From Mesostigma viride (taxonomy: Eukaryota > Streptophyta > Mesostigmatophyceae > Mesostigmatales > Mesostigmataceae): a DNA stretch of 64,000 nucleotides. The position numbers and the translations under genes are program-made. The stretch's first letter is position 1; every line of letters starts with the position of its first letter. The notes below the pieces were generated by a model. It saw only the letters and a program-made list of their open reading frames with translations. It was not told the DNA's origin and did no database searches. Shown here piece by piece: positions 14,487 through 61,460 of the stretch. The DNA lies in contig RPFO01000034.1 in NCBI GenBank assembly GCA_009746045.1, positions 1,334,286-1,398,285 on the forward strand, in the 5' to 3' direction.

Positions 14487-14826
14487 AATGATCCCATCCC
14501 ATCCCATCCCATCCCATCCCATCCCATCCCATCCCATCCCATCCCATCCCATCCCATCCCATCCCATCCCATCCCATCCCATCCCATCCCATCCCATCCC
14601 ATCCCATCCCATCCCATCCCATCCCATCCCATCCCATCCCATCCCATCCCATCCCATCCCATCCCATCCCATCCCATCCCATGCATCCCATCCCATCCCA
14701 TCCCATCCCATCCCATCCCATCCCATCCCATCCCATCCCATCCCATCCCATCCCATCCCATCCCATCCCATCCCATCCCATCCCATCCCATCCCATCCCA
14801 TCCCATCCCATCCCATCCCATCCCAT
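14470..14826. repeat. (CCCAT)n satellite, left part
   Basis: Pentanucleotide array of about 340 bases with one GCAT interruption near 14684. It ends abruptly at the CACTA terminus. It gives open repetitive frames in all six phases, which are not genes. Confidence 0.98.
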
Positions 14827-15332
14827 CACTAGGAACTCAGATCTGAGATTTTTCTCAGTTTTTCTCAGTTTTCTCAGGAAGGCTGCCTGAGATTTCCTGA
14901 GATTTCCTGAGATGTCCTGAGATTTCCTGAGATTTCCTGAGATCAACTGAGAAAAATCTCAGTTTTCTCAGGAAAACTGAGAAAATCACCTGAGAAAACT
15001 GAGAAAACTGAGAAAAAACTGAGATCAGCCTGAGAAAGTCGCCTGGCCTGAGATTTTTTTTTCTCAGGAACGAAATTTCTCAGGCGCCCGGTTTTTTCTC
15101 AGGCTGCTGCCTGAGAAAATCTGAGACTGAGAATATCTGGGAAACTTAAGGCCTGAGAAAAACTGAGAAACCTCATGCACACAGAGAAATCGCATTCATA
15201 CCACGCAACCAGAAATCACTTTGATTACAAATTATAATAATTTCTTGTGCAGTTGGAGTACAGCTCTTCAAGTTTAATAAGAACATCAATTTCAGTCACT
15301 AGACGAGTTGCTACAATCTGCTTCAGCGTAGC

Positions 15333-25269: not shown

Positions 25270-26453
25270 GGACTTCAACAGCGCCCAGGCTATTGACAGG
25301 CCAGGTGTCTTTGTGGTGTAGAATAGCGGGTCAACGTTATGAGGACTGGACAGAAAATGGAAAAGGACAATTTGCGGTGCGGAGCCAGATCGCTGGAATG
25401 AATGCGAAATCGCTGGCAGCCCTACAAAGGGATTTCTTCTAGAAAGGAAAGATTAGAAGCAATGTTTGCTGGGCCACTCACACGCAAGGTGTGAGCGTGC
25501 AGATTGTTTGAAGGATATTATGCTTCGACCTTGGTGGTCGTGACTAAATGCCGGACATTCCCAGGGACAGAAATGCCGGAGCCTCTAGGAGATGAGATCG
25601 GCAACAGGGTAGCAATTTAGATTTGTCGGGATGCCTTCCTGTTTTTGTTGGCATGTGTGGTAGTAAGCCAGGACGGCAACTGGAATGCGGTTTCTGTTTG
25701 CATGGTTCAGGCAGCAAGATAGTTTTGGCATTCCTGGCTGGACTGACAAGTGTGGCGTGTGTCATGCGTGTGGCATGACGAATGGTTTGGTTCATAGTCG
25801 AAGAGGACTCTCACGTAGCGTGTAGTCTCTTCGAGTCTCTCGTTAGTGGCCTTCGTGTTTCTCCCTTTCCTTGGGAGCAAGGCCGGTAGCATGTCATGGA
25901 GCGCTGCCTAACTGCGGGCTCGTGAGCATGGAGTGCATCGATATTGAGACTATCAACGTGTTGTAATTGTATTAACTTTCTCAATAAATTCCGCATGTGC
26001 GGCTTCATCATCAGACTGTGCAAAGTGTGTGTTGTGAAAGCATTATTCTATAGCAGGGGAGGCAATAAGGTGGTCATCAGGCACGAGGGACAGTTCCTTG
26101 TCCTCGGCTGAGAGCCCTCCTTTCGTTACTCGAAGAGACTACCCGGTAGTCTGCTTCCTTCTGTTCGAAGCCAAGACGTTGGCTTTAGTGTTTATCAACC
26201 ATCAGCAGTACAGGGAACGGCCTGGCTGACAGTTTGTAAAGGAAGTGTCTTGAGACAGATTTTAAGAAAATAGAACTAGCCAGAATTTGCTGGCTCTTGT
26301 CTTTTTCTGGCAGGCTAGTCGAGTCGTTATCCTTGACGCCTGTTATAAAGCCTTTGGTTGTTGCTTCTTCTCAGCGAAACCTAGGCTTGTTGGTTCTTGT
26401 TTTGCCCATCGGTCAGCTGGTGCATGCCACTGACGCGAGCGCAGACTCGAGCC
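25270..26453 (+). other. Leader / probable 5' LTR region of the gypsy element
   Basis: No coding frame with recognisable content. It lies directly upstream of gag. It contains a TATA-like TTATAAAGCC at about 26342 and a TGGTGCATGCC at about 26419 that could be a primer-binding site, though I cannot match it to a tRNA. Because the 3' LTR is missing from the window, the LTR borders cannot be set by comparison. Confidence 0.35.
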
Positions 26454-28430
26454 ATGGCGGATGCAAATAGAGCAGATGCCGACACGTCCGCTCCGGGGTC
26501 GAATGGCGGGATTCCTCCCGCCGTACCCGCAGTGGGTGAGAGTCGCGACCAAGAAGCGCCGCTGAGTATGGTGGCGCTGTTCGCGCAGATGCAAGCGCAG
26601 ATGCAGCAACAGTCGCAACAGTTGCAGCAGCAACTGGCGCTGCAGATGCGGGAAGTGACCGACAGATTGGTGGCCGTAGAGGGTCGTCATCTGCAGTCCA
26701 CACCATGGGACGGGCAGGCATCGATGCCGGGCCCCAGTGGTGTTGCCGCGGAGCCGAGGGAGCGGGACCAGCCGCCAACCTCAGGTAATGCGGCGGGAAG
26801 GGCTCGATGGAACCGGGGGTTTTGGCTGGGTCGCTAACCCAACACGACTTGCTTGGTGAGGCGGATGGTCAGCCACGGGGCGAGTATACGCTGGCGCCCA
26901 GGCGCCTGCCTTTCGATCAAGCGCGAGACGGATTGCACGAGGAGAACGGGGCAGGGCTGGCGCGCGCGATGGACCCACGCAGGGGTGCACCAGGACGCAT
27001 GCTGCCAGGCGGGGTCTCAATTCCGTTTGGGCGAGGCGGTGGGGCGCTGACCGGCGGGTCGACTGCACGGTGGTCAAGTGTGCCAATCGGGCGCATTCCG
27101 CCCATGGAGGACATAACCACGCCGCTGGCTTTCCGAGTACGGGAGGCAGCACGCCCAAGCACGCTGGCGCAGGGACGCGCAGCTCAGCGACCGCCGGAGG
27201 ATGCCGATGGGGTGCAGTACCCGCAAAGGGTGCGCCTCATACCTGAAGGCGCGAAGATGCCCACCCTACCACGGGTGGACATGCGCGAGAAGTTCTCCAC
27301 AACCGGCAATCTGGCCACGCTGGCGCAGGCCTACAACGCGTACAAGTCATGGATTGATCTGCAATACATGACTACGCAAGGCGCTGTAATGCATGAGTTT
27401 GTGATGAACAACATGCATTTCTTCTTTCACGGCCTTACGCTGAGGCGAGTGGCTAGGCTGGTGGAGCAGTGGAGAGAGGTCTCGCTGTACACGCGTCACA
27501 CGGACGTGTGGTTCGGCTTCGACGGGCGTGGCCAGCCCGACTATGACAACATCATGTATGGTGTCGACCCTGCCGAGGAACTGTGGGGCCTCCTTCGCCA
27601 GGAATACCCGGTGGAGACCATCAAGGCAGAGCGTGAGTGGCGCAGTTTCAAGATAGCCGAGGGTGAAACCCCGGAGCAATCTTACGAGCGCCTCATGGAG
27701 TTCGCCGGCGAAGTGGAGGACTGGTCCGAAAAGCTGGCGTGTCAGAAATGGCTGCAAGCGCTAGGCTCCAAGGAGATGGAGCTGCCCACGCCGCCCAACG
27801 GCCAGCCGTGGCGATTGCGGTCACTGTGCATTGAGGTCAGGGCCATGATGCGACGACACGCGCAAGGCCGGATCTCGGTAAGCACGGTGGTGGCCGAGCT
27901 GCAGGCCAAGGTCGACGCGCTGACCAAGGCCAAGTCGGGTGAGTCGTCTGCCACAAGACAAGCGCGCCCGCAAGGCGGCCACGGTGCTAGCAGGAACCAA
28001 GGGGGGTCTCGCAACGCCTCATCGCATGATGCAACCCAGGGTAACGCCGCTGGCGGCAACAAGGACGCTGCCGCCCCGACGCGAGCTGGGGGGGCACGTC
28101 CTCACAGACGGGTAGGACGGATGCGCGCAAATCGGGCTGCTTCCTGTGCGGTCAGGATGGGCACATCAAACGTGATTGTCCCAAGGCGTGTAAGAAGTCA
28201 CACCCGGCAACGGTCCGCACCCATCTGGCGGGGCAGTGCCCAGCGCCGGGGGTGCACTTTGCGGACGTGGAGGACAAGAAGGTGGACGCGGGGGTGGTCA
28301 TCATTCAGCCGACGGGCGAGGCGGGGGGCGTGAAAGGGAGGATGGGGGATCGCAGGTTCAATACAGGGACGAGGACTTCTGGCGGCCAGCCGACGTGATG
28401 GCGTTGGACATCCACGCAGTTGGCGCGCGA
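26454..28430 (+). pseudogene. gag: gag polyprotein, frameshifted
   Basis: It starts MADANRADADTSAPG at 26454, chosen because the following frame is long and contains a Gln-rich coiled-coil-like stretch (MQAQMQQQSQQLQQQ). The frame shifts near 26815 (run CCGGGGGTTTTGG) and continues to about 28090 with a typical retrotransposon capsid pattern: FSTTGNLATLAQAYNAYKSW, then EWRSFKIAEGETPEQSYERL. Another shift in a GGGGGGG run near 28090 leads into the nucleocapsid zinc knuckle CFLCGQDGHIKRDC (28138-28179), a perfect C-x2-C-x4-H-x4-C. The product would form the virus-like particle and bind RNA. Two frameshifts make it non-functional as read. Confidence 0.75.
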
Positions 28431-28837
28431 GGGAAGCAAGCACGTGCACCACCGTCGTTTCAGGTGGGGCAGCCAAGTGAGACTGTGGGGCAGTTGCCTC
28501 AGTCCTTTCGCATGGCTCCCGCTCGGACCGGCTCCACCCTGGAACACGACAATCCTGCTGGGGCAGAGCAGCGGCGCAGGTTGTTGCCATTATACCCTAT
28601 GCCGTCAATCGTGGACACGCCGGCATACACTCCCCGGCAAGTGGTCGAGTGGTTCGGTCAGCGGGCCGTGGAGGTGCTCGGGTCGCATGCGTCAGAGATA
28701 CAGCGGTACGCTGACACAATGGATGCCCGTAGGTTGCACAACGCTGAGACAGCCACATTTGTTGGGCATCGCCCTGTATCGGCTTCGGTAGTCGTGGGTC
28801 ATGTCGCTCATGGTGTCTTGGACAACGCGCAGCGGGC

Positions 28838-29350
28838 GTGCGTATAGTGCCTAGGGCACCCACTGTCACCTCATATCCGGATGGTGAGCCAGCAATGGCG
28901 TTTCAGGCGCAGGGGCACGGGGAGCCCCTGAGCAACGTGGTCTACAGTACTGACCATGAATTGGTCGTGAAACTGGACAGCGGGGCCCAGCCACTCGTTA
29001 TCATGCAGTGCTCGGCTGGCCCAGTTGCTCAACCTAACCAGGGAGAATGGCGGGCTGCGGGACAGTCATGTGTCCGTGGCGGGCTGGCAGGGCCCTGCCG
29101 CTATAAACCCTTTGCCATGACTGCGGTCCAGGTAATGGTCATCCTCAACCCGCTCAGGCCATCCGACATGGCCTGCATCCCTGTGAATGCCCTTGTGACC
29201 GAGCAGTCATCGTATGACGTGCTGGTCGGCATGGAGGTCATGTTTCCCATGCGGCTCGAGGTACGCATGAGGGAGGGCCGCGCGGTGTACATCGTTGACA
29301 GAGACGGTGACGCCATGCGCCAAGCAAGCATCCCAGTGAGCTGCTACAGC
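28838..29350 (+). pseudogene. Retropepsin-like aspartic protease
   Basis: The frame contains ELVVKLDSGAQPLVI, with the catalytic D-S-G triad at 28976-28984. About 80 residues later comes a hydrophobic segment SSYDVLVGMEVMF, which matches the C-terminal hydrophobic-GM motif of retrotransposon proteases. The length (about 150 residues) is normal. It follows gag and precedes the methyltransferase. It would cleave the polyprotein. It sits in a frame that is open from 28838 to 29845, but the links to gag and the methyltransferase are frameshifted. Confidence 0.7.
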
Positions 29351-29969
29351 TCGGACACTGGGGCAGTGCGTGTCTCGACGGTCAACCGGGTCGAGGGCTC
29401 GAGGCTGGGTTGCGCGACGCGGTGGTGGAGGTACGGATGGGGGAGGTCACGGCAGCTGGGGGGGCTGTGCGTGATAAGCATCGGCCGTGCATCCCAACAG
29501 CGCTGGTGGGACGGGCCTCATTGCAGAGCACGTGGGCGGCGCGACAGCAGCCGCAAGCGCGGCAGGCCCTTTTGCGTCAGCACGTCACCAACGCGGTGCG
29601 GCAGCAACAACTCTCTCATCCCCCGGCCGCGGCAATCGCAGTCACAAGTGGCTGTCGCGACAACCGAAGGTAACTTCTGTGCCGATGTTGTGGCAGAGTC
29701 GCGGGTCTTGTCTGAAGGGGTTGTATTGCTAGAATTGTTTGCTGCATGGGATGGGAGGGGGGCTGGCTGGCTTTCTCGCTGCAGGCGGTACGTGCCACAC
29801 GTTGATCGCCGTAGAGCCGTCTCCTACCGCTCGGGCAGTGTATAGGCATCACTGTGCCCAGCTGTGAGGGGATTCATAAGTGTTTGCTCAATTTCATAAA
29901 TTTTACTCAATTTTTCCACATGTGATTAAACCCTTATATTTGTCAATAAAGCAGGAATCATCCAGCCTT

Positions 29970-30465
29970 CAGACCATGAAAATAGACCACCCACAAAAAT
30001 TGGGCTCATTCTGAGCTCAAATGGTGACATGTGACAGCATACATGTGCAGTTTTTCGTCATTTTCCCCCTTTTCTTACATGAAACAAATATGAACAGTGG
30101 ACAAATTAACTCATATCAGGCTGGATTCTTGCAGGCAGCATTTATACCATGAAAATAGACCACCCACAAAAAATTGGGCTCATTCTGAGCTCAAATGGTG
30201 ACATGTGACAGCATACATGTGCAGTTTTTCGTCATTTTCCCCCTTTTCTTACATGAAACAAATATGAACAGTGGACAAATGAACTCATATCAGGCTGGGT
30301 TCTTGCAGGCAGCATCTAGACCATAAAAATAGACCACCCACAAAAATTGGGCTCATTCTGAGCTCAAATGGTGACATGTGACAGCATACATGTGCAGTTT
30401 TTCGTCATTTTCACCCTTTTCTTACATGAAACAAATATGAACAGCACTTGAACAAATGAACGCTT
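29970..30465 (+). repeat. 173-bp tandem repeat, left arm (about 2.9 units)
   Basis: Units begin near ACCATGAAAATAGACCACCC at 29973, 30146 and 30320, spacing 173-174 bases. Each contains ATTGGGCTCATTCTGAGCTC and GTGACATGTGACAGCATACA. Units are very similar, so the array is young or homogenised. The right arm holds the same unit inverted. Confidence 0.95.
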
Positions 30466-30469
30466 ATTT

Positions 30470-31110
30470 AGAACGACGCGGTTGCGGATGACATCCGGAA
30501 CCTTGTTCTTGACGTGCGCCCAGGCCGCCAGCTGCGCGGAACAGCTCAAGAAATATATATTAAAGGACGGTGACGCCCGGGAAGCACCCAGCCTTGCGGC
30601 AAAAGTAAAATATGGCTCGCGCTCGCCGTGGTTTTCGCCAGGCGTGACTGCGATATCACGACGAAAAAATGGAGACTCTTTGACCCATCTAACTGCCCAG
30701 GTCCCTCTGTTGCCCGGGTCGCCCATTAGCCCAGAAGCGTACCATAACCCATACTCGCGATATCCGCAGCTACTGGGCGGAAAAAGAAATTGTAAAACCG
30801 AACAGCATACTGACCTATCATGCCATCTACGTAGCTTCCAGAATTTCTTCACCGTTGCCAAAATCCGTTCATGAACAATATTTTCGACGTACACAAAGCA
30901 CCTGCACGTCAATCTCCCCTGACATTGGTTATCTGCCCCATCTTCATGATCTAACACGCAAACACCTAAAGTATTTGCATAACACAGGCGTTTTGCCCTC
31001 TGGTTCTCAGTTTCACTCATTGCCATATCATATTATGCAGGCACGTTTTGGTAAACAATCGCCGGCGACGTTGGTTTTGTTCGTGCGCGCACAAAGTAAT
31101 TACCGGTAGT
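30470..31110 (-). other. Possible minus-strand coding frame, unidentified
   Basis: A 220-codon frame (31026 down to 30364) beginning MAMSETENQRAKRL with balanced composition. It includes ENIVHERILATVKKFWKLRR and SPFFRRDIAVTPGENHGE, which look like ordinary protein. Its 3' end runs into the satellite arm, so the C-terminus may be wrong. I recognise no family. It could be an exon of the element's second gene, or chance. Confidence 0.3.
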
Positions 31111-31266
31111 GCTTGGCAGGCTGTACGCACCTGCAGCCGCGCGCGCGCAAAGACGACGGTCACTGTGCTTTGTTCATTCAAATGCCATTTGCATGCGAGG
31201 CTCGGACAACACCGCGGACTGTTTGAATCAGAATTTTTTCACTTTTGGATGGTCCTTCGTTTCTCG

Positions 31267-32030
31267 CATGTTCAGCCCAGTTCAGGTTGTACGGTCAGTG
31301 TTGGGGGTCGGTGCATGGGTTCTCAATGGAATTCTCAATGGAATGCCGCAACAGCCCATTTTCATTGAGAATGCAAGTCCTTTTCGCATGTTCAGCCCAG
31401 TTCAGGCTGTACGGTCAGTGTTGGGGGTCGGTGAATGGGTTCTCAATGGAATTCTCAATGGAATGCCGCAACAGCCCATTTTCATTGAGAATGCAAGACC
31501 TTTTTGCATGTTCAGCCCAGTTCAGGCTGTACGGTCAGTGTTGGGGGTCGGTGAATGGGTTCTCAATGGAATTCTCAATGGAATGCCGCAACAGCCCATT
31601 TTCATTGAGAATGCAAGTCCTTTTCGCATGTTCAGCCCAGTTCAGGCTGTACGGTCAGTGTTGGGGGTCGTTGAATGAGTTCTCAATGGAATTCTCAATG
31701 GAATGCCGCAACAGCCCATTTTCATTGAGAATGCAAGTACTTTTCGCATGTTCAGCCCAGTTCAGGCTGTATGGTCAGTGTTGGGGGTCGGTGAATGAGT
31801 TCTCAATGGAATTCTCAATGGAATGCCGCAACAGCCCATTTTCATTGAGAATGCAAGTCCTTTTCGCATGTTCAGCCCAAGTCAGGCTGTACGGTCAGTG
31901 TTGGGGGTCGGTGAATGAGTTCTGAATGGAATTCTCAATGGAATGCCGTTACAGCCCATTTTCATTGAGAATGCAAGACCTTTTCGTATGTTCTGGCTGT
32001 ACGGTCAGTGTTGGGGGTCGGTGAATGAAT
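31267..32030 (+). repeat. 120-bp tandem repeat (about 6.3 units), open in two frames
   Basis: Units start with GCATGTTCAGCCCAG at 31267 and recur exactly every 120 bases until 31987, where a short deletion ends the array. Because 120 is divisible by three, each open frame stays open: two plus frames encode repeated 40-residue units (for example MFSPVQAVRSVLGV and FACSAQFRLYGQCWGS). Each unit has TTCTCAATG twice and the complementary CATTGAGAA once, so it can form a hairpin. It may code, but the array itself could produce the open frames. Confidence 0.9.
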
Positions 32031-32652
32031 TCTGCATGAATGGAACTTTCATACGCCGCGCTGAGTCGGTGGAAGATCGAGCCACAAAAGAGGCAGGAGA
32101 GGCATCATTGGGAGAGGCGTGCCAACCCCGAGCGAGACGATGGTGAGTTCGATCAAATTGGCTGATTGCAATAATTTTGCGGAGCTAGAATAATCGCTCG
32201 CGAGAGCTGCCATGGGCGGTCGTGAAGGTTCAGACTATTTGAGGCGCCGTGACGAATATGGTGGGGGGCGCTGGAATTGGATGTCGTTGGACATTGAAGA
32301 AGTCGACCCTTGACCCCTGGGCCCCCTGTTTTAGCCGCAGGGGATGAGGCAGCTTGCTGGCGAACGTTCGTCGGCGTTTTGGTGTTGCTGAGCCTCTTAC
32401 GTCCCGACCACCATGGGCCCGTGTCGTACAAGGGGACGGAATTTATGCCCAGGCAGTGTCGATTCCCCACGAGGCATACAAGGGCGTAGTAGACGGTGAT
32501 GACTTGCAGGTCGACCATCTCGATATCAGTGATGACGATGATGATCTAGATGGTGGGTGCCGTGAGGCTCGCACAACAGGATTAAAATCGTCTGCCTCGA
32601 CAGTACTTATTGAAATACGCTACAAATGCCGACGTGATCGCGGCAGTCGGAG

Positions 32653-33849
32653 TTGCAGCGCGGTCGGTGTTGTAAACGCCGATGCATCCAAGATCCCGAG
32701 AAAGCCCTGTCGTCGTTTGTAATCTGGGAGGCCGCCATTGCATTGGCGCAGCAAATATTGGGCCAACTACACTGTAGAGCGGAAATCCAGGCGCTGCGGC
32801 GACCCAATCAGAGCGGAGCAGGCCCGAGTGCCACCACTGACCTGGATGCGGAAACGCGTCTAGCATTGGAGGGTGCTCGTTGCTTCGTGCCGCTGGTTGA
32901 CCCCGTTGTCCACGCGGGGCGGCCCGCTAGCCCTGAGCACTGTGCGACGCGCAGAGGATGCAGCGGTCGCGCTAAAGCAAGCATCCGCTGCAGCATGGGA
33001 GGGCATCGAGGACGTGGGGAAGCCGATGATGTGTCAACATCCGGGGCTAAAGGATGCAGCTGCGATCTTCTGTGCAGCCCCCTAATGCCTTTCACTCCTT
33101 TGCTGTACGTGGTGGCCCGCAACATCACCGGCGACTTATCGCCAGACGCCGTGGTTGAACTTGAGTGCTACGGCTCGCACTCGTACACAACGCGGTTTTC
33201 GCCCTTCAGCCCGAGCTCGGCCCATTTCCCCCTGCCCGCCGCCACAAGGACAGGTACCCACACATTTTCAGTGAAGGCAAGCACAATCGTCTTGTCTTCG
33301 TGGCGTGCGGGGGGGGGCAAGGTGCGCCGGGTGGGCTTGACAAGCAGTGGCACATTGACGCAGCACACGAAGGATGCTGTTGTTGGGCTCTCGCTCGACT
33401 GGATTCAGTGGGATGGGTACGGAACCCCGGCGATGGCGGAGAAGACGGCGGTGGGACTTTTCAAATCGCGTGTCATGGACGTGCCAGAGCCGGAATGGTT
33501 GGTGGGGAGCCTGGTATGCAAGATATTTTCGGGCCCCAACTCGGGGGAGAAGCGGTATCATGGCCATGTGACGGCCTTTAGTAAGGAGCACGACATGGCC
33601 CATCTGCTATACTCCGATGGCGACGATGAAATAGTGGGATTTGATGAGGTGCAGGCTGCGCTTTGCGCATGCCCCGGTGTGCAGTTGCCAAATCTTCCAC
33701 CTGCGAGCATTGCGCGAGGGAAGGCGGACATTACTGAGTGCATTCGCAAGCAGGTCGCCCAGCGTTCCACGGCAATGAAGCAAGCCAAGGCCACCCCGCG
33801 CCACAAGCGCCGGCCTCCCATCATTCCTGATTCAGACTCTGATGACTAG
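32653..33849 (+). CDS. Transposon-encoded protein with C-terminal Tudor-like domain
   Basis: A 398-codon frame; the start is uncertain and upstream exons are likely (a frame at 32354-32722 has an acidic DISDDDDDLDGG stretch). The first 150 codons are Cys/Gly-rich and unconvincing. From about 33100 the protein looks real. Residues near 280-340 read LVGSLVCKIFSG, then RYHGHVTAFS, then HLLYSDGDDEIVGFDEV. This is the G-x-x-V-x-K-x-F, Y-x-G-x-V, Y-x-D-G-D-x-E pattern of Tudor-like chromatin readers in plants. The end is basic then acidic (RHKRRPPIIPDSDSDD). Such a domain could tether the element's machinery to chromatin; that is inference. No catalytic transposase motif was found. Confidence 0.5.
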   Translation: MQRGRCCKRRCIQDPEKALSSFVIWEAAIALAQQILGQLHCRAEIQALRRPNQSGAGPSATTDLDAETRLALEGARCFVPLVDPVVHAGRPASPEHCATRRGCSGRAKASIRCSMGGHRGRGEADDVSTSGAKGCSCDLLCSPLMPFTPLLYVVARNITGDLSPDAVVELECYGSHSYTTRFSPFSPSSAHFPLPAATRTGTHTFSVKASTIVLSSWRAGGGKVRRVGLTSSGTLTQHTKDAVVGLSLDWIQWDGYGTPAMAEKTAVGLFKSRVMDVPEPEWLVGSLVCKIFSGPNSGEKRYHGHVTAFSKEHDMAHLLYSDGDDEIVGFDEVQAALCACPGVQLPNLPPASIARGKADITECIRKQVAQRSTAMKQAKATPRHKRRPPIIPDSDSDD

Positions 33850-34079
33850 CCTTGCCGCATGTGGCTTTTAATTTTTCATGGCTGCCCTACCTTCTCGGTG
33901 CATGCTTTGCGGCTAGCAGCCTTGTGATCAACACATTCCGTGTCTTATGACCTTGGTTCATAGGTTTATTACATGTCCTTACAATTGGTAGAACATATAT
34001 CAAATGGGATAAAACCATATTTGGGTGAACAGGTTTCATGGCTCATGGCTCATCTATTTTTTTTCAATGGGATATGACG

Positions 34080-34892
34080 TAAAAGCTGGCAATGTGCATT
34101 TTCTAAATGCTGCCTGCAAGAATCCAACTTGATATGAGTTCATTTGTTCACTATTCATATTTGTTTCATGTAAGTTAACCGAGAAAATGACGAAAAACTG
34201 CACATGTATGCTGTCACATGTCACCATTTGAGCTCAGAATGAGCCCAATTTTTGTGGGTGGTCTATTTTCATGGTCTAGATGCTGCCTGCAAGAATCCAG
34301 CCTGAAATGAGTTCATTTGTTCACTATTCATATTTGTTTCATGTAAGAAAAGGGGGAAAATGACGAAAAACTGCACATGTATGCTGTCACATGTCACCAT
34401 TTGAGCTCAGAATGAGCCCAATTTTCGTGGGTGGTCTATTTTCATGGTATAAATGCTGCCTGCAAGAATCCAGCCTGATATGAGTTCATTTGTTCACTAT
34501 TCATATTTGTTTCATGTAAGAAAAGGGGGAAAATGACGAAAAACTGCACATGTATGCTGTCACATGTCACCATTTGAGCTCAGAATGAGCCCAATTTTCG
34601 TGGGTGGTCTATTTTCATGGTATAAATGCTGCCTGCAAGAATCCAGCCTGATATGAGTTCATTTGTCCACTATTCATATTTGTTTCATGTAAGAAAAGGG
34701 GGAAAATGACGAAAAACTGCACATGTATGCTGTCACATGTCACCATTTGAGCTCAGAATGAGCCCAATTTTTGTGGGTGGTCTATTTTCATGGTCTACAT
34801 GCTGCCTGCAACAGTCCAGCCTGAAATGAGTTCATTTGTCCACTATTCATATTTGTTTCATGTAAGAAAAGGGGGAAAATGACGAAAAACTG
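34080..34892 (-). repeat. 173-bp tandem repeat, right arm (about 4.7 units, inverted)
   Basis: The same unit as at 29970-30465 in reverse orientation. The phrase ATGCTGCCTGCAAGAATCCA recurs at about 34107, 34280, 34453, 34627 and 34800. The array is cut by CACTA 2 at 34893 and resumes at 39298-39405. Overall the arms make a long inverted repeat around the core. Confidence 0.95.
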
Positions 34893-36369
34893 CACTAGGA
34901 ACTCGGCTTTGAGAATGGGTGAGAAATTGTGAGAAAAAGGGTGAGAAAGGTGAGAAAAAGGGTGAGAAATGGGTGAGAATGGGTGAGAAAGGTGAGAAAA
35001 AAGGGTGAGAATGGGGTGAGAATGGGTGAGAAAACACGTTTCTCACCCGGGTGAGATTGCCCCAAAAAGGTGAAAAAAGGGGAAAAACGTGAGAAAAATC
35101 TCAAAAAACAGGACATGAGATAAGTGAGAAAAACGGGAGGTGTGAAACGTGAGAAAAGTGAGAAAATCAGGACGTGAGAAAAGTGAGAAAAGTGAGAAAA
35201 ACAGGACGTGAGAAAAGTGAGAAAAGTGAGAAAACACAGCGCTGAAAAACACACCCATAATGCAATATGCTGGCAGCAGACACATGCATGCAGTGCCAGT
35301 AACAACCGCTGTTCAAAACAGCACGAACAATAATGATTTTTTCATTAAATGTTTGAATAATTTTAATGTTTACAGCTGCAAGAACCCGTTGATTCAACTA
35401 TTCAACACTGTTATGGCGTTATGTACATCTTCGGCATTCAAATATGCCTTTTCAACACAGTCTGTTATGGCGTTATGACATCTTCGGCATTCAATGCCTG
35501 TTCAACACAGTCTGTTATGGCGTTATGACATCTTTCGCATTCAATGCCTATCATCAAATACTATATGGTAGCTAGCTAAAAAGCGGGCCGGTCGACAGGG
35601 CGTCACATGCTGACTTGAAAGTGGAACCGCTTGCATTTTACTCTCGTGGTCCCTGCAAGAAATAAAGCAAACCGACACAATATACGCAAGAGGAAAAGAA
35701 ATCAGATCCTTGACATAGATGTAAGCGTTCTACAAGGATCTTGAGCTCAGCACCACCTAAAAATCCATGCAGCAAATGTGTATGGCAAATCATAATTCCA
35801 TCAACATACAATTCTACACATCCATGCATGCAAGAGGCCGGGGGAAAAAAAACAGGCCCTTGCAGATAAACATCTATACCTTCAAATGCCAAAATAATGA
35901 CACCTATAATTCCCCCTAAAATGAAAGCAGTGCAAGAGACAAAAAAGACATCAGATCCTTGACATAGACATCACCATTCTACAAGGAAGAGCTCACCAGC
36001 ACCTAACGGTCCATGCAGCAAATGTGTAGAACCCAACACTCACTCTTATGGCAAAGCAGCCCCATGTGGCAAGGCAGCACCATACACATGAATCACACCA
36101 TGCGCCAGATGTCACACGAGCAAGGCACAACGTTGTCGTCGGATCAGAAAGCAACAAACGTGAAAACGCTAGCGGCCCAAATCTGAGATTCCGCGGAACA
36201 CAGAAAATAAGAAAGCTCAGAAGCTACCAGCAAGGGATCGAACATATGACCTTTGGCATGATTTCGCGGCTGTGTGAGTCTCCTGATCCGAAGGCATCTC
36301 ACTTAATTAACGTTTCGAAACAGCCAAACTGCGGAAAATCTCTTACCGGAGAGAGTTGCCAATATCAAG

Positions 36370-36600
36370 GAGACAACCAGCGCAGGCCAGAAATCGGGAG
36401 AATCCGGACCATGGTAGCTCGAGCCTGCCGTTATCTTGTCCGCGTTTTCGAGTCGTGCAGGATTATGAATATGAATGGAGATGGAAATGTGTAGCCTTGT
36501 GCATTGAAATTACGGCTGGCTGACGTGAAGAGCGACTACATGACCTACACGGTGGGGCCGGAAACGGCTTGCTTGATTGTGTTTCATCGTGGGCAACGAG
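36370..36600 (+). repeat. Dispersed repeat B, copy inside CACTA 2
   Basis: It begins GAGACAACCAGCGCAGGCCA and runs to CGGAAACGGCTTGCTTGAT. It matches 46092-46290 (same strand) and the reverse complements of 37250-37425 and 56495-57085. The family looks like a 300-bp SINE or MITE. The 148-codon plus frame over 36048-36494 is only partly this repeat and I do not call it a gene. Confidence 0.65.
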
Positions 36601-37249
36601 TCCAACAACTACTTTCTCTGGGCGGCAAACTGCGGCAAATTGAACGCAAACCTCATCATGAAATCTTGACCGTCGAAATGTAACAATCCGACGACTTATG
36701 CAGTATGCCGCGTAATTTTCTGTTGCGGGAGAGCCGTTGGGCCGGTTCCCGACGCGGGCGACCAGTGGTTTGCGTTAAGTTAACTTAGCTGAAGTTCCCC
36801 AAGCCGCATGATGGCTCTCATCGACGGCCTCAGTCTATTGACGCGTCGGCCCGATTTTGGCGGCACCCAATTTGACCCCAACGGCACCTACCGACAAAGG
36901 GCATACGTACGTTTCACGCGCACCACGACCTTCGAGCTCTGCTATGGCGGTGGTGCCGTGGGGCCCGCATCAGACTGCGGGCCCTTATCTGCTTTGGCGG
37001 TGCTGCCGTTGGGCCCGCATCAGAATTCAGGCCCTTTATGCATGCGGGCCATTAATGCATGTTACTTTTTTAGTCTTCTGCATACAAATATGAAGCAATG
37101 AGGTCGTGTCCTCTGGATTTTTGCACTGCAAATGGCATTTGCACCGTGTGCAGTTCCTGGACGTTTGGAAACATGCATGATGGCATGTGGCTAATGTAAT
37201 GACTGACTAGCTAGACCGTTTCAGTGGTTTTTCATTTGCGGGTATTTCC

Positions 37250-37425
37250 TCGTAAATGGTGGGAAAGCGATCGCAGCAATGGTTCTCACCACTAGACACT
37301 CCCGGCCAGTGAAGCTCGAAAAACACGCCCTGATCAAGCAAGCTGTTTCCGGCCCCACTGTATAGGTCATCTTACAGTCGCTCTTTGCGTAAGCCAGCCA
37401 TAATTTCAATGAACAAGGCTACACA
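37250..37425 (-). repeat. Dispersed repeat B, inverted copy
   Basis: The reverse complement matches the distal part of the repeat (AAATGTGTAGCCTTG through TCAAGCAAGC and beyond to GCGATCGC). With 36490-36600 it makes an inverted pair of about 100 bases roughly 750 bases apart, so both could be ends of one element. Confidence 0.6.
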
Positions 37426-37431
37426 TTTGCA

Positions 37432-37890
37432 TACTCTTTGCTTGGTTATCGGTGTGCCTTTGTTTGGATGCAGGGGGGATCGCTGTGCTGACACAACGCG
37501 GCAAGGGATTTGCTGGTAGAAGATGCCCTTCCCAAGGCTGATTACAGCGACCCTGCGAATGGCGACGAGGCCTACTGGTGAGCCTTGTTTTTTGCAAATG
37601 CTACTTACGCCGTCTGCTTTGGTTTTTTTAATTCAGTCCTATTGAAAGGCGCCTTGGGATTAGCCATGCAATCATGTTTTACTGTCACAAAGCCAGCCCT
37701 AGTAATTAATATCTAGTTTGTTTGGTTTTACCCATCCGGGTGCCATGATCTTGCCGCCAGTAAAAGCGTCCTGTGTTGTATCTGTTCTATTTTTTTTAAT
37801 AACCAATACTTGCAATAATAATACTCTTTGCTGGGTTATCGGTGTGCGTTTGTTTGAATGCAGGCGAGATCGCTGTGCTGACACAACGTT
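37432..37890 (+). repeat. Duplicated splice-acceptor region in CACTA 2
   Basis: The segment ATACTCTTTGCTNGGTTATC...ATGCAGG...GATCGCTGTGCTGACACAACG occurs at 37432-37499 and 37822-37890, 390 bases apart, about 93% alike. The second copy fronts the open exon. The first is followed by stops. Duplication of an acceptor inside an intron fits this pattern. Confidence 0.75.
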
Positions 37891-38806
37891 CAACGTGCTT
37901 GCATGGGCATCATTAAACCTGACGCCGCTTGTGCCGCAAGGCATTGTAGCGGCGTGTGGGGGCGTGAAGCGCTACGCGGATTCTTTCCACAAAGTCAGGA
38001 TACACGGGTTCAACTACCGCACGGAGGCTGCGGACCAATCCCAGGGAAAGCGGCACAAGAATGCGGGAGTTGCGGTGCATGGCCCGGGCGGTGTAGACTT
38101 TGGTTTCATTACACACATTCTGAAGGCCAGGTTAGAGTACCCACGAGGGGGCTGGGAATGGCAGCTGTTGTTGAAGGTGGAGCTTTTTGATCGCCTTCAT
38201 GTCGCTCACCTGCCCCACGAGAGGTTGGTGGTCATCAGCAGCGCACAGGCCCCCAGGTCGTCGTGCCTTGTGTTGCCAGGTGCAGTGAGCTCAGTTGGGT
38301 ATGTCGTCGATGAATGCTATGCTCCCGAAATGGTGGTAATCCCTGCCAAACTGCCATGGAGCATGGCACATCAGGCGCAATCTGCCCTCAGTAACCATGT
38401 GTATCACAGCGTGGCAGCAGATTTCCCCACCATGCCGCAGTTTGAAGTGATTGAGGAGGGTGAGCCGATGCCACCGCCACCGCCTAGTGGCAAGAAGAAA
38501 GGCAAGAAGAAGGGGTCCAAGAAGAAGAAGGTGGCAGCGGCAGACCTAGGTGATGGCGACGTGGTGCGCCGCGCTGGCAAGGCACCTGCTCGAGGGCGCA
38601 GCCGCAAGCGTGGTGCTCCCACAGATGCTGGACCTAGCCAGCCCACCGTTGTAATTGAGGAGGTCCCTATGGCAAAGAGGGCCAGTGGAAGGCAGCGTAA
38701 AGCTGTGAACTATTGCGACACTAGTGGGGATGACACTATGTCATCAGAAGATGATGTTGATGCAAGCAACCCCTCGGACAGCAGTTCTGAAGAAGATGAC
38801 TATTGA
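37864..38806 (+). CDS. CACTA protein, DUF4216-like domain with basic/acidic tail (last exon)
   Basis: The open frame extends back to 37718, but a strong splice acceptor (TTTGAATGCAG ending 37863) suggests the exon starts at 37864. The first 150 residues follow the pattern of DUF4216, a domain in plant En/Spm transposon proteins: VRIHGFNYRT, then KNAGVAV, then GFITHILKARLEYP, WQLLLKVELFD, and a final VSSVGYVVDECYAPEMVVIP. Then come Pro-rich and Lys-rich stretches (GKKKGKKKGSKKKK) and an acidic Ser/Asp/Glu tail, ending at TGA 38804-38806. The tail suggests nuclear localisation and chromatin contact. Family knowledge: this domain accompanies the CACTA transposase; its exact function is unknown. 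Upstream exons were not found. Confidence 0.6.
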
Positions 38807-40649
38807 TTTAATTTGGGCATGACAGCATTGTTTATGGAATGATGTGCTGTTTTATATTGTATGACAACCCTATATTAATTGCACCTTTGTGCACCCTATA
38901 ATGCATATCAAAGTGGTGTTGAGTTTTTTTTCACGTTCAGGACTTAATGAAATAAAGCTCATGATTTTTCTCGTGTTACACTCTTGGTGAGAAATTTCTC
39001 ACCACGTTGACTTGTGATTTTTCTCGTGTTGGTGAGAAACTTCTCAATTTTCTCAATTTTCTCAATTTTTCGGACTTTTTCTCACCCATTCTCACCTTTT
39101 TTCTCACTTTAGGGTTTTTTCTCACCCCAATCTCACCAAAACCCCCTTTTTCTCACCAAAATCTCACCCTGGTGAGATTTTTTGCCTAGCGTCTGCGGAA
39201 AAAAATTGAGATTTTTCTCAATTTTCTCAAAAAATTCTCACAAAAGGTGAGAAAATTGAGGGTTTTGAGAAAATTCTCAGAATCTGAGTTCCTAGTGTGC
39301 ACATGTATGCTGTCACATGTCACCATTTGAGCTCAGAATGAGCCCAATTTTCGTGGGTGGTCTATTTTCATGGTCTACATGCTGCCTGCAACAGTCCAGC
39401 TTTAGGTACCCTCAGATCTGAAAGATTTTATTTTTACTCATTTGAAGACTTGTGAAATTGAGCAAACACCTATGAATCCCCTCTGTCTGCCCTGTATCCA
39501 TCTCAGTTCCCTCCGTCTGCGTGGACAGATCCGTTTGGGGAATGCCCTCAGGATATCCGTGCTATTGGGGAGGTTCATGTGCGAGGCCTTTTGAGGCGGC
39601 ACAAGAGGATAGACCTCGTCCTCGCGGGCTGGGAATGTCAAGGGTTGAGTCAGGCCGGCGTAGGACGCGGGCTTGCGGATCCTAGGAGCGGGTTATTTTG
39701 GGATCTGCTTCGAGTTGTTGGACTCTTGCAGCAGTTGCAGGACCAGCCCCTAGCGTATCTTTTTGAGAACGTGGTGGCCGACGACAGCCCTCACGAGGTA
39801 GTGAGGAAGGACTGGGCCCAGATCGTGGACATCTTAGGGGCACCAGTCACGTGCGACAATGCAGGATTGGGCGGGCTCACCCACAGGTACCGCGCATTCT
39901 GGACCAACCTTGCACTCACCACCACCATCCAGGCAGTGGTAGATGCGATCACACGACAGCACGACGGCATGCCCGCGGAGGTGGCGCTGCCACCACATTT
40001 GGTCACGCAGCGGGTAGACGTCGCCGATCGGCACCCTTACGCGCCCGTCAATCACGTAGGTAAGCCTATGTGCGCTCTTCCCACCTTGCATGTTAGTTAC
40101 CAGGGGTCATCGGCCTACAGGGACCGCGGGGCAAGGGTTTGGTATGGGACACCGGTACGGGTTTGTTGGTGCAGCCGCCCGCTGAGTTTCGGGAGGTGAG
40201 CATGGGGTTCCATGTGGGGGCGTCCGCCGCTGAGGGGGTTTTAGAGGCCACTAGGTGGTCTCTCGTTGGGCAAGCCATGTCAGCCTTCCAGGTTGGGTAT
40301 GTTCTGCGGGCCGCAATGCAAGTGCGCCAGGGTGGGGGAGATATCCCCACACCGCCACCGCCTGTCAGTGCCCACGCGGCTGGTGTCCGGCCAACAGCGT
40401 CCGGCGGTACTGGGTCGCCATGGAGATCGCGGCTGCTTCAACTATGGAGCGTTATCCTCATGACGTCCTTGTTGTCCAGCACGGTGTTCGCTGGAGCGCC
40501 CACCCTGCAGCAATCGGTCGGTCGCGCAGTCCGTGCCATTCAGCAGGTGAGCATCACACCCGGTGTAGCCGCATTTTCCCTTTTCCACGATGCCGCTGTC
40601 CGGGGGCCTTGTCTCGACAGTAGGAGTGCCGCAGTCGCAGATCCTGCTG

Positions 40650-42140
40650 CCTCTCACATATGGGCCATAGGTGAGCAACTCACCGCCACGCAACGCAAGG
40701 CTATGGAGCACTGGTTGCATTCTGCACGCTCAGTTTTCGCTTTCAGCAGTGAAGAACTAGGGTGCTACAACGGGGGCTGCATGGGGGTCCCACTAGATAC
40801 GGATCAGCCCTTATTCAGGCGGCAGCATAGGCTGAGCTTGGCTGAGCTGGAATTCGTTGATGCTAACCGTCGAGAGCTAGAGGCAGCTGGGATCATCCGC
40901 GCTTCATCCTCCAGTTATGCAGCTGCCACGGTGGTCGCACCCAAGAAGGATACCATCACAGGCGAGTGGACAGGTATGCGCATGGCCACTGACCTGCGTC
41001 AGCTGAACGCGCACACTCCTGTTGATAGGTACCCCATGCCTCGGGTCGATGATGTTTTGGATAAAATATCTCCCCAGGTCAAGTATGTGTCGTCGCTAGA
41101 TTTGCGTAGCGGCTTCCATCAGATCAAGGTCGTAGAGGCAGATCAGCGCAAGCTGGCCTTTTGGGGTGCATGGGACCCGTCTGTACGAGTGGGTTCGCAT
41201 GCCATTCGGACATCGCAACGCTAGTGCGGTGTTCCAACGTGCCATGGACCAGGTGCTGGCAGGGTTGCCATTTGCAGCCTGCTACATAGACGATGTCATT
41301 GTCTTTAGCGAGACATTTGACCAGCACTTAGCTCACCTCGATCAGGTTCGGATCGCCCTAGATAAGGCCAACCTGCGGCTGCACCCTGAAAAGTGCAAGT
41401 TCGCCCAACAGACCATAGGGTTTCTTGGTCATCAGATTAATGTACCAGGTGGCCGGACCCCTGAGGCAGCCAAAGTGGAAGCCATCAGCAACGCCGCAGT
41501 GCCCATCGACATCTCGGGGGTGTGCGCGTATCTCGGGCTAGCTGGCTATTATCGAGGATATATTCAGAATTTCAGCACCAAAGTCAAACCCCTGACTGAG
41601 TTGTTGAAGAAGGGCAATGTCTGGGCGTGGGGTCCGGCTCAGCAGCGAGCCATCGATACCATCAAACAGGAACTGACTGCCGCTCCTATCCTACGCGCCC
41701 CCGACTATGCTCTGCCCTTCATTCTTTATACCGATTGGTCCAAGGTAGGCCTAGGGGCTGTGCTAGCACAAAAGGACGATGCGGGGCGCGAGCATGTTAT
41801 CGCGTACGCTATAGTCGGAGTAACAACTCTGCCGAGAGTCGGTATACTCTTCCTACGAGGGGGAAGCGTTAGCCGTTGTGTGGGCCATCAAGCACTTCAG
41901 GCCATATCTCTTTGGGCGGGTGTTCACACTTGTCACTGATCACCAGCCCTTATTGTGGTTGATGACCAGCGACAAACTCACGGGTAAGCTGGCCCGGTGG
42001 GCAATGATCATTCAGGAGTACCACCTGACAATCGTCCATCGGCCAGGTGTGGATCACTCCAACGCGGACGTCCTGTCCAGGTATGCTCTACCAACCACTG
42101 TTGACAACACTGGTGCGCGGGCCCTAGGGGCCGAGAGCTC
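40650..42140 (+). pseudogene. pol: Gypsy reverse transcriptase and RNase H
   Basis: RT: MATDLRQLNAHTPVDRYPMP (domain 2), SSLDLRSGFHQI (domain 3), MPFGHRNASAVFQRAMD (domain 4) and the catalytic YIDD (codons 41283-41294), then KCKFAQQTIGFLGH. A one-base frameshift in TTTTGGGG (about 41163) separates domains 3 and 4. RNase H starts ILYTDWSKVGLGAVL; another shift at about 41810 separates it from EGEALAVVWAIKHFRPYLFG-type sequence and TDHQPLLWLM. It ends with VDHSNADVLSR. The enzyme copies RNA to DNA inside the particle. Sequence order and motifs are typical of Ty3/gypsy. Frameshifts make it non-functional unless they are sequencing errors. Confidence 0.85.
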
Positions 42141-42479
42141 GCCTGGGTCTGTGGTTTTTGTTAATGCTGCAGGCTTCGCTGACGCCGACGCCGAGGCAGA
42201 CTGGCGCGCAGTCGAGTATACAGTCGCAGACTTTGCGGCAAGCTGCAATGCAGTTCACCCTTCTCCCTTCACCCCTGCCGCTGGCCTCCTCGCGTTGGAG
42301 GAAGGTAATTCTCCGTCCTTTGACATTGACAATACCTTGGCACGATACCTAGCACTCCAGGTGGTGTTGGTTGGCCATCTCACAGTGGAATGCAACATGG
42401 GTGATGTGTGGCTCGATGGGCGTGTGTTGGAGCAGGTCCAAGGGATAGCTCTCACCCCCACCCCGGTTGATTGGTCCTC

Positions 42480-43115
42480 AGCCCAGCGTGACGCTGAGTT
42501 GAATAGGGTGCAACATAGGGCGGTCACCTACTCGTGGGATGCCGGGGTCCTCCACAAAATGATCGGCAAGCGCAAAGTGGTGGTGCCGCCGCCTCACAAG
42601 CGGGTCGCCATCGTCCAGCAAGCCCATGAGCGGTATGGCCACCTGGGTGGTAACCGCACTTTGGCGCTAGTGCGCGCCTCTTATTGGTGGAACGGCATGC
42701 GTGCATGCCACAGTCGCGCAGGTCGTCGCTCGCTGCGCGCAGTGTGCCCGGGTGAAGGCCCGGTTCAATGTGGACCACGATGCGAAAGAATTGATGAGCC
42801 TACCCATCAGAGGGCTCTTCTACCGCTGGCACGTAGACCTGTGTGGGCCCTTTGATGAAAGTGCAGATGGCCACAAGTATGTCATGGTGTGTGTCGAAAG
42901 TTTTAGCAAGTGGGTCGAGCTCATCCCCATTGCTGACAAGCAGGCCGCCACCACCGCCAAGCACTTCGCCATCATGGGACAGGTCCTCGCCCACCCCACA
43001 GGGCATGCAGTTAAGGCAGGCACGTCAGCTCAGCTCATTTGGGTTTTACCAAAGCTGAGTGGCCAGCCGCCACATGTGGTGGCGCCGGAGATTGTGGCAC
43101 GCAGACGCGACAAAC
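42480..43115 (+). pseudogene. int: Gypsy integrase, truncated
   Basis: The zinc-binding HHCC part reads HERYGHLGGNRT and, after a frameshift near 42710, VARCAQCARVK. The catalytic core starts WHVDLCGPFDES with the first acidic residue, followed by YVMVCVESFSKWVELIPI. After about 42965 the expected second Asp and Glu are missing; the sequence passes to unrelated frame content and meets the LINE at about 43115. The integrase is thus cut after one third and the rest of the element, including the 3' LTR, is gone. Confidence 0.8.
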
Positions 43116-45340
43116 TGCCGAGCAGCTTGAAGCTGCCAGAAGGAGGGTAGTTGACCTCGGCATCGTCTAAGAGGCGGAGTGTGGGTGGGGGCCCTGCCAT
43201 GCCGAGGGCCAGGGCCTCCGTTTTGGGGCTGATTTCTCATTTCTAGACCAACCGCCCGAGCCTCGAGCGCCAGGCAGTCCAGCCAAAGTTGGGCAGACTC
43301 CGGCTTCTCGATGAGCGTGATGTCGTCGGCATAAATGAGGTCAGCTAGTAAGTTCTGCCCATTAGTCGGCCCCCCTTCCCCAAGCTCGTTCGTGATCGCT
43401 AGGCCAGGGGCACGGCCTGCAATGCTAGCAAAGCGAGCACGTGCCTGGCGCATAACATAATCCACTACAATAATAAACAGGTACGGCGACAGGACGCAAC
43501 CCTGCCAGACGCCGGTCTGCAGTGGGCATGGCGGGGTAATGCCGTGTTGAGTGCGCACCGAAGTGGTCGACCCCTCATACAGCGTGCGGATGACGGTAAT
43601 CAGGGGAGTGGGGACGCGAGCGCGAGCAAGTACAGCCCATAGAGCGTCCCAGAGGACAGAATCAAAAGCCTTGATGAAGTCGACGAAGATCAGGATGGCG
43701 GGAAACTCACCAGGTTGCAGGAGAGCGATTTCCTCGAAGAGGCGACGCGCGACGAAGATGGCCATGACGGTGTTGCGCCCAGCTAGGACGGAAGCCCATT
43801 TGACTTTCCCCAAGGTGACAGTCGAGAGCAGAACGGAGGCGGTTGAGGATCATGCGCATGAACAACTTGAGTGCGGCGCTCTGGATGCAGACTCCTCTGT
43901 AGTTGGCGGGGTCGTCAGGGGAACCTTTGTTTTTGTACAGCATAATACGGTAGCTGTGCTGCCACTCAGGAATCGGCGGCGCGTCGGCAAGCAGGATCCG
44001 GTTGCAGACGTCAAGCAGGAACCCCGTGAGCGCCGTCAGCTTAATCACCGGGGCTGGGAGCTGGTCAGGTCCAACGGCGGCATAGAAGCGGAGTTGCTTG
44101 GCGGCGGTGCTCAGCTCGAGCTCGGTGAACGGCGGGAGCTGGTTGGGGTCGGCCAGGGGTTCCGTCAGGGCTGGGTACGTGTAGTCCTGCTCAGCGGCGG
44201 GCGGCGTGGGCGGCGCAGGGACGTCCGCAGGCGCTACTGCCAGGCGTGCGGCCGCCAGTCTGAGGGCCAAGCGGCGGAGGCGGCGGGGGGGCGCCGAGCA
44301 GCCGGGACTGGGAGAAATACCACTGGTCGAGCTGCTGCTGCGGTGAGCCAGAGAGCGTCCGCGGCGCCGGCTGCGCGCCGCCGGCGGGCCGTTGGGCGTG
44401 ACGCAGGCGGGTCCAGGCGTACTTGCCGTGCTGGTCCTTGAGGTGGGCGAAGTACTCGCGGACATGAAGGTCCTCTTGCTCCTTGGTCGCCTGCCGGATG
44501 GCCGAGTGGTAATCGGCTTTGAGGCGGGCGTAGCGGGCGGGGTCGCTGTTGTCGCGCAGGGCTTGCCGGGCCTGGATGACGGCGGGGAGCCGGTGCAGGC
44601 TGGTGAAGCGGGGCGGGCGGCGGGGGGGCAGCAGGGCCCCGGCCGCGCCCGGGGCAGCTTGTCAGCGAGGTGCCGAAGGGCCGATGCCGGGCCGGCAGCG
44701 AACAGCTGGGCGTGGCTGGCTGGGATGTCCAGCGCGTCGACGAACGCCTCGGCCGCGCGCTTGTGGGCGCGTTTTTCAGGGAAGTCCTCCAGAGCGTCGT
44801 CAGATTTCTCAAGCAACTGAAGTGTGCGCAAATCAGGTGGTGCCACGTGCTTACGAAAGGGCGAGGGGAATCGCAGGCGGATGTGGGCGGTGACGATGCG
44901 GTGATCGGAGCGCTCCAGGGGGATCACATGCGAGCGAGCAGCTAGTACAGATCCTTGATGACGCTTGCGCATTACAACATAGTCAATGCAGCGTTCAGTG
45001 CCAGTTGGCGAGGTATGTGTGACCAAAGCATCTGGACTATGTGGAAAGCGGGTGTTGGCCAGCAGTGACCAAATCGCATGTCGTAAGCAAATCAGCAAAA
45101 AGTTCAGTGTTGGCATTGGAGACCGTACCGTTGGGGGCGTGCTGACATCCGCCAGTACCCGGTGGTAGCGTGGCGTTGGCGTCCAGCAGCAGAGCGAGGT
45201 AGTTGCGACCAGGGATACCGTTCGCCAGGTTCTCCAGCGCTGCAAAAAAGTCCTTGCGGTCTTGTTCTGGGTGGCCGGAGTGGGGTGCGTAACCAACGCC
45301 CACCGTCAGGGCGTAGGTCGAGTGGCCCTCCATCGAATGA
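43115..45340 (-). pseudogene. LINE copy L4: endonuclease and reverse transcriptase
   Basis: Minus-strand ORF2 of a non-LTR retrotransposon. The N-terminal end is cut within the endonuclease: LALLLDANATL, then IDYVVMRKRHQGSV and LERSDHRIVTAHI (the SDH end of the exonuclease-endonuclease-phosphatase fold). RT: YRGVCIQSAALKLFMRMILNRL, then after a frameshift near 43800 FVDFIKAFDSVLWDAL, VWQGCVLSPYLF and LIYADDITLIEKP (catalytic ADD). The long Pro/Arg/Ala stretch between domains (44250-44700) is GC-rich and partly scrambled. The copy stops at FKLLGS, before the YGAETW region, and lacks a 3' tail. Both ends are therefore truncated; the left border with gypsy integrase looks like a deletion rather than a clean insertion. 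Confidence 0.8.

Positions 45341-61419: not shown

Positions 61420-61460
<41 letters not shown>

Follow-up and report, generated by a model that had tools for sequence, protein, structure and literature searches.

A decayed Ty3/gypsy retrotransposon copy in Mesostigma viride with a DNA methyltransferase of apparent Dnmt3 type in its pol region

Can a long terminal repeat (LTR) retrotransposon keep a cytosine DNA methyltransferase among its own pol enzymes? Cytosine methylation is a common host weapon against such elements, and the question is raised by a stretch of 64,000 nucleotides from the streptophyte alga Mesostigma viride (contig RPFO01000034.1, positions 1,334,286 to 1,398,285, forward strand), here called the window, in which an original prediction had seen a Ty3/gypsy element encoding a C5 DNA methyltransferase (DNMT). 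That claim was upheld. Profile and family similarity delimit, at about 26.8-43.0 kb of the window, a decayed Ty3/gypsy element with the order gag and CCHC knuckle, protease, DNMT, reverse transcriptase (RT), RNase H and truncated integrase, where matches to DNA_methylase, RVT_1, RNase H and Integrase_H2C2 follow one another in order. It is almost certainly a Ty3/gypsy LTR retrotransposon copy that is dead, truncated and interrupted and that has a Dnmt3-type DNMT. The explanation of the whole that we favour, with rather more confidence than doubt, is that the enzyme is a standing component between protease and RT, with methylation of complementary DNA (cDNA) as its proposed use.

All parts of the element lie on the plus strand. 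The frame at 39462-40196, within the 39.5-40.3 kb interval first read as the enzyme, scores 34 bits in the Pfam family DNA_methylase (PF00145), for which the cut-off is 22 (E 2.8e-8). The main segment of the DNMT (39483-40154) also matches P0006, a protein model of Mesostigma, at 74% (E 9e-97, tblastn against the window). In alignments A1 and A2 it holds motif IV as WECQ (39630-39641, with the Cys codon at 39636-39638), motif VI as EN (39765-39770) and motif VIII as HRYRAFWTN (39882-39908). The C-terminal segment (40097-40447) matches residues 145-278 of P0001, a DNMT-only Mesostigma model, at 50% (E 1e-27) and contains motif X, RWSLVGQAM, at about 40253-40279; the open frame 40097-41224 holds this motif together with the start of RT. 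A first segment with motif I, which binds S-adenosylmethionine, is found at 29739-29855 (P0006 residues 623-661, 69%, E 1e-10). Motifs VI, VIII and X were thus present as predicted, but the motifs are not contiguous, since 9,618 bp separate motif I from the rest, and motif IV does not read PCQ.

The 9,618 bp at 29866-39483 are an insertion inside the DNMT that does not belong to the retrotransposon. It is bounded by terminal inverted repeats beginning GAGGGGATTCATA (32/35 matching) and by a target duplication, TGT, at 29863-29865 and 39484-39486, and it is probably a DNA transposon. When the flanks are joined (25+30 nt), they give an open stretch reading YRHHCAQLSALYPSQFPP, and the model P0006 runs unbroken across the site, from residue 661 to 664; the DNMT was therefore continuous there when the insertion arrived. 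Within the insertion, a repeat of 173/174 bp was observed in three places: 29971-30444 near the left end, 34102-34895 about half-way and 39298-39400 at the right end. A 120-bp repeat of 6.5 copies, along which open frames run, occupies 31264-32033. There are also two long frames, 32638-33849, with a weak Tudor-like match below the cut-off, and 37706-38806.

The remaining parts of the element were located in the same manner. A gag-like open frame spans 26789-28333, where residues 2-135 of P0006 match 27530-27931 (44%, E 4e-31); a Pfam search of the window frames found no Gag family in it. The CCHC zinc knuckle of Gag nucleocapsid (28135-28185; zf-CCHC E 1.1e-6, residues 31-47 of frame 28045-28395) is in another frame than the gag-like one, so that a frame change precedes it. 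The gag tail and protease region (28362-29794) contains at least one further frame change, as P0006 matches 28362-29102 (44%) and 28847-29794 (35%) in different frames. The retropepsin, which had been called clear, did not prove so: the window frames gave no match to a Pfam protease, and the putative protease is recognised by its likeness to P0006 and, more weakly, to P0011, a protein that itself matches Pfam gag-asp_proteas and whose protease region matches 28967-29338 with E 2.7e-4.

The RT (40640-41810), likewise described as clear, changes frame near 41.17 kb. Its second piece, in frame 41136-41936, matches RVT_1 with E 4.6e-20, and the first piece, in frame 40097-41221, stays below the Pfam cut-off (E 1.6e-4, 21.9 bits); P0009, P0010, P0012 and P0013 match the region at 32-43%. 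RNase H follows at 41628-42144, with a frame change near 41.82 kb (RT_RNaseH_2 7e-19, RT_RNaseH 3e-20; P0010 60% over 41836-42120). The zinc-binding part and the first part of the core of a truncated integrase occupy 42586-42994, with Integrase_H2C2 (5e-10) in frame 41824-42852 and a partial rve (5e-4, 20.7 bits, below the cut-off) in frame 42671-43147; P0012 matches 42707-42994 at 50%. Similarity to the integrase ends near 42,994, and a few weak alignments reach 43,039. Both pieces below the cut-off, the first RVT_1 and the rve, are backed by family similarity. The order protease-RT-RNase H-integrase of Ty3/gypsy elements, with the integrase last, is therefore present, the protease weakly and through relatives, the rve piece below the Pfam cut-off. 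The copy is decayed, as had been foreseen: different frames hold parts of gag and protease, DNMT, RT, RNase H and integrase, the DNMT is interrupted and the integrase is cut short.

Whether the DNMT belongs to this element or was picked up by this copy can be judged from its relatives. Three protein searches were made, all begun from the DNMT. The segment alone retrieved P0001 at 64%, a pair of unnamed proteins and, weakly, two enzymes of phage type. When long proteins were admitted, the matches were P0006, at 74% over 91% of the query, together with seven proteins that are 1,210-2,119 amino acids long. With the family alignment, 134 of the 7,994 scored candidates sharing most words reached E 1e-4 or better; their clusters comprise up to 53 near-identical members. 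By protein similarity to these models, the host of the window would, with fair confidence, be Mesostigma or a near relative. The 126 proteins counted below are the 128 fetched minus the phage-type P0004 and P0005, the share of the family alignment being the best 120 of the 134. Because the searches started from the DNMT, relatives free of it could not appear and motif frequencies are not those of an unbiased sample; the presence of a DNMT in the relatives is given by construction, but its fixed place in pol is not.

Domains were placed in the 126 proteins with our own profiles, seeded with Pfam coordinates. The commonest arrangements were RT-RNase H-DNMT-integrase-PHD (32/126) and the same with a further C-terminal domain (22/126). 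DNMT alone was found in 21 and protease-DNMT in three (P0006, P0011 and P0093), and the other 48 have partial or shorter forms of the RT-RNase H-DNMT-integrase order. In 125 of the proteins the DNMT stretch reaches 200 amino acids or more; in 102 of these it is preceded by RT/RNase H and/or followed by integrase, and in three it is preceded by a protease. The window has the order protease-DNMT-RT, and tblastn found no DNMT between its RNase H and integrase. P0006, with 890 amino acids and 4 clustered sequences, is a gag-protease-DNMT model that lacks the insertion.

These arrangements bear on the reading that a host Dnmt3-like gene was struck by a gypsy insertion, the fusion being only apparent. 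The Dnmt3-like sequence and the nested and repeated elements of the window would fit such an event, but the protease-DNMT order recurs in P0006 and in the metagenomic P0011 and P0093, the window frame is open from motif X into RT (40097-41224), and 102 other proteins have a DNMT beside RT/RNase H and/or integrase. As the same fusion recurs in relatives, this reading was rejected and is regarded as highly improbable; it would require P0006, P0011 and P0093 all to be mis-assembled. A chance capture in the window copy only, the outcome that would have refuted the original prediction, was rejected on the same ground, because long-frame relatives carry the DNMT at the same or at a second fixed place in pol.

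The two places correspond to two clades, namely protease-DNMT-RT (type A, with the window and Mesostigma) and RNase H-DNMT-integrase (type B, in which a PHD finger is frequent). A quick tree was built from 128 rows, one of the 126 proteins being dropped for a DNMT stretch below 200 amino acids; in it, P0006, P0001, P0011 and P0093 group with the window in one clade (SH-aLRT 98). In a more careful tree of five type A and 48 type B rows, a single branch splits the two DNMT positions with support of 100/97. For this tree, seven long-branch or near-identical rows were removed first and the 48 were taken at random from type B rows longer than 300 amino acids; the bootstrap was unsettled, and P0001, one of the five A rows, was labelled by its kinship in the quick tree and not by pol position. 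Both trees are unrooted; in the quick tree, the phage outgroup is too distant (branch 3.04).

This split could mean that types A and B each acquired a related DNMT gene, in separate events, from one donor lineage, instead of a single capture after which the DNMT changed its place in pol. The single well-supported branch agrees with two captures, as does the fact that a DNMT at both positions occurs in none of the 126 proteins, as placed by our own profiles in proteins of which many are partial. The tree that would argue for two captures is, however, unrooted, and the unusual xECQ form of motif IV is common to both clades, so that one element-borne ancestor is favoured and two captures are considered rather unlikely.

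Members of type B carry additional domains. A PHD finger occurs in 74 of the 126 proteins and stands after the integrase in type B members such as P0010, P0012 and P0013. Single members also list a G-patch (P0023, P0049), a chromodomain (P0060) or a Tudor-type domain (P0031). A further C-terminal domain in 33 of the 126 (P0007, P0008, P0009, P0012 and others) was delimited with a profile of our own and called Dam-like; its only Pfam support is MethyltransfD12 with E 0.022, below the cut-off, in one fragment. Should it be a Dam-like enzyme, the type B elements that have it would encode an adenine methyltransferase in addition to the cytosine one. The labels of the relatives include Mesvir1, which we take to be Mesostigma, Haematococcus lacustris (P0068), Chrzof1 (P0026), presumably Chromochloris, and GHRQ, assumed to be a transcriptome prefix, a record whose open frame is marked complete (P0029). 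P0042, labelled as a bacterial metagenome-assembled genome, is most likely mis-binned algal DNA, and Klebsormidium is absent from the names among the relatives listed.

The constraint on the DNMT was compared with that on its neighbours at the protein level, as a stand-in for dN/dS. In 250 random pairs from 40 type B elements with all four domains, median pairwise identity was 0.43 for DNMT, 0.40 for RT, 0.50 for RNase H and 0.48 for integrase, against baselines of 0.31 and 0.28 for spacers and 0.20 for shuffled DNMT; the DNMT was more alike than RT in 179/250 pairs. Mantel correlations of distances among type B elements, the window being left out, were 0.66 for DNMT-RT (52 elements), 0.71 for DNMT-integrase (84) and 0.73 for RT-integrase (43), each with p 0.001. 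By these protein comparisons, the constraint on the DNMT is about that on RT, and the DNMT is co-inherited with RT and integrase, its distances tracking theirs almost as closely as those of RT track those of integrase.

As to the kind of enzyme, a profile of alignment A2 searched against PDB sequences matched DNMT3A best (E 4e-16), DRM2 and bacterial enzymes more weakly, and a tRNA methyltransferase last (0.007). An AlphaFold2 model of the relative P0019 (pLDDT 88.4, pTM 0.85, alignment of 40 rows) has DNMT3B and DNMT3A structures as its top matches, and all 50 of the PDB matches listed are DNMT3 proteins; matches to viral structures have weaker E-values. The closest profile and the predicted fold among solved structures thus suggest a DNMT of Dnmt3 type. 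Motif IV of C5 methyltransferases is usually Pro-Cys. Its Cys is kept in 126/126 rows with a letter there, the window included, and is preceded by Glu in 112, as in the window, by Pro in 12 and by Ser in 2, which makes xECQ a naturally occurring version of a catalytic loop that is highly conserved. Motif VI Glu and Asn and both Arg of motif VIII (RxR) are kept in 127/127 rows, again with the window.

The exchange of Pro for Glu leads to the question of whether the DNMT, even as a standing part, is a DNA cytosine methyltransferase in practice, or instead acts on RNA (element RNA, primer tRNA or an RNA:DNA hybrid) or only binds nucleic acid. Besides the prevalence of Glu, the published trials of comparable enzymes fit such a role: in the available part of the report, neither KnitGypsy-Dnmt3 nor SymbioLINE-Dnmt methylated DNA in yeast, results that its authors call inconclusive, and RNA methylation was raised for SymbioLINE (PMC5890265). 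Invariance, across the rows compared, of the Cys, of Glu in motif VI and of Arg in motif VIII would nevertheless be odd in a dead enzyme, 12 relatives retain Pro, and the top match in both profile and fold is DNMT3, a DNA enzyme, the tRNA methyltransferase being the weakest PDB sequence match. A role on RNA or in binding is accordingly judged unlikely, if less so than a struck host gene.

For a standing DNA methyltransferase, the following course can be proposed. In intact members the DNMT would be made as part of Gag-Pol, because motif X is in frame with RT in the window and P0006 joins the DNMT to gag and protease. In gypsy elements, pol enzymes enter the particle and are freed by the protease; the DNMT would then be packaged alongside RT and integrase and released in the same way. 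Its simplest use would be to methylate the nascent cDNA of the element either ahead of integration or during it; new copies would then enter the genome already carrying 5-methylcytosine, as camouflage or as self-restraint. We infer this cDNA step from the conservation of the enzyme, and self-methylation of new cDNA is held with confidence a little short of even. A wider proposal is more tentative still: a large and old green-lineage gypsy group may have made Dnmt3 an integral pol enzyme, with the change from Pro to Glu, acting in the particle on cDNA or on the RNA:DNA hybrid, and type B may pair the DNMT with a PHD histone reader by the integrase, as methylation writer and chromatin reader. 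The DNMT3-ADD arrangement of animals might be regarded as the cellular counterpart of this pairing.

Several points weigh against the explanation as a whole. The Glu in place of the motif IV Pro means that chemistry or substrate may differ. P0006 alone gave no match by phmmer against PDB sequences, and the Dnmt3 assignment, taken from profile and model, is a best-match argument with no rooted tree behind it. The rest of the integrase was not found downstream of about 42,994, and a comparison of 22.5-27.6 kb with 42.9-64 kb for an LTR pair found none, the matches there falling on LINE-like repeats. An origin from a nearby giant virus or phage was tried and rejected: a scan of IMG/VR gave two weak loci among 63 pattern matches, with 30% and 35% identity, of which one has an enzyme by motif pattern, reading TPCQ (L002), and the other none (L001); a scan of IMG/VR with P0012 found nothing, and one scan of prokaryote genomes confirmed none of 23 pattern matches as relatives.

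Elsewhere in the window, RT frames on the minus strand at 43049-45305 (RVT_1 E 3e-15 in 43049-43849) adjoin the end of the integrase similarity and are taken as LINE-like. LINE-like frames also lie at about 24.05-24.43 kb, and stretches related to these sequences occur upstream of the element, with 75-94% identity in pieces. In Pfam, a further set of ten long frames, of which nine are from outside the element and the tenth is one of the LINE-like frames next to it, gave no more than a weak RVT_1 and a sub-threshold DUF match, and no RNA families were found in the window. CCCAT/ATCCC pentamer arrays at 14470-14827 (about 72 copies) and 20503-21969 (about 293 copies) stand near repeats of CCTGAGATTT, and a G-rich tract of 400 bases lies on the plus strand at 61420-61821.

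A whole clade in which the DNMT is kept about as well as the RT would point to self-methylation as a stable strategy and not a curiosity of two lineages. The clusters of near-identical members, the complete frame of P0029 and the bisulfite data that exist for Mesostigma viride, according to the part of the source available (PMC6947507), make the gain of the element from methylation testable in culturable algae. The open-licence literature searched contained no description of the xECQ motif, of two pol positions or of a PHD-bearing branch, nor of members in Haematococcus, Chromochloris or Mesostigma. In the accessible portion of its text, a transcriptome survey of 2023 reported no DNMT3 in the green algae of its set (PMC9998398). 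In the prasinophyte Cymbomonas, scaffolds of very high copy number include a cytosine methyltransferase, according to the section available of a paper of 2015 (PMC5741210), and this may be a further trace of such elements.

The kind of element is already known, from KnitGypsy-Dnmt3 in 2018, and the statement that retrotransposons with a DNMT are known but rare agrees with this precedent; the xECQ motif, the two positions, the PHD branch and the chlorophyte members are apparently undescribed in the literature searched. As far as the available text of the report goes, KnitGypsy-Dnmt3 of Klebsormidium nitens is a gypsy-type element with an intronless Dnmt3-related domain in Pol, which is under purifying selection with Ka/Ks under 0.2 (de Mendoza et al. 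2018; PMC5890265). It is the closest precedent and has in common with the window a Dnmt3-type domain inside the Pol of a gypsy element from a streptophyte alga. It differs, in a comparison with the window family by description only, in its DIRS-like repeats; its key residues are reported as conserved, and the available part of the account mentions neither an xECQ motif nor a PHD finger, nor members from chlorophytes.

Looser parallels are found in other classes. In the same partial source, SymbioDIRS-Dnmt3 and SymbioLINE-Dnmt of Symbiodinium are likewise retrotransposons, with a Dnmt3 and an orphan DNMT, respectively, and two SymbioDIRS-Dnmt3 enzymes methylate CG in yeast; methylation of cDNA before or at integration was proposed for SymbioDIRS (PMC5890265). 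They belong to the DIRS class, with a tyrosine recombinase, and to the LINE class, and not to gypsy elements with an rve integrase, and their hosts are dinoflagellates. DIRS and other elements with a Dam-like adenine methyltransferase, as described in the portions available of two reports (PMC5890265; PMC6338049), also carry a DNA methyltransferase of their own, but these enzymes modify adenine and are structurally unrelated to the DNMT of the window. Chromoviruses, the gypsy elements with a chromodomain (PMC10675990, available in part), have a chromatin reader after the integrase, as does the type B branch; in many type B members this reader is a PHD finger instead of a chromodomain, although P0060 lists a chromodomain too, and a DNMT is present as well.

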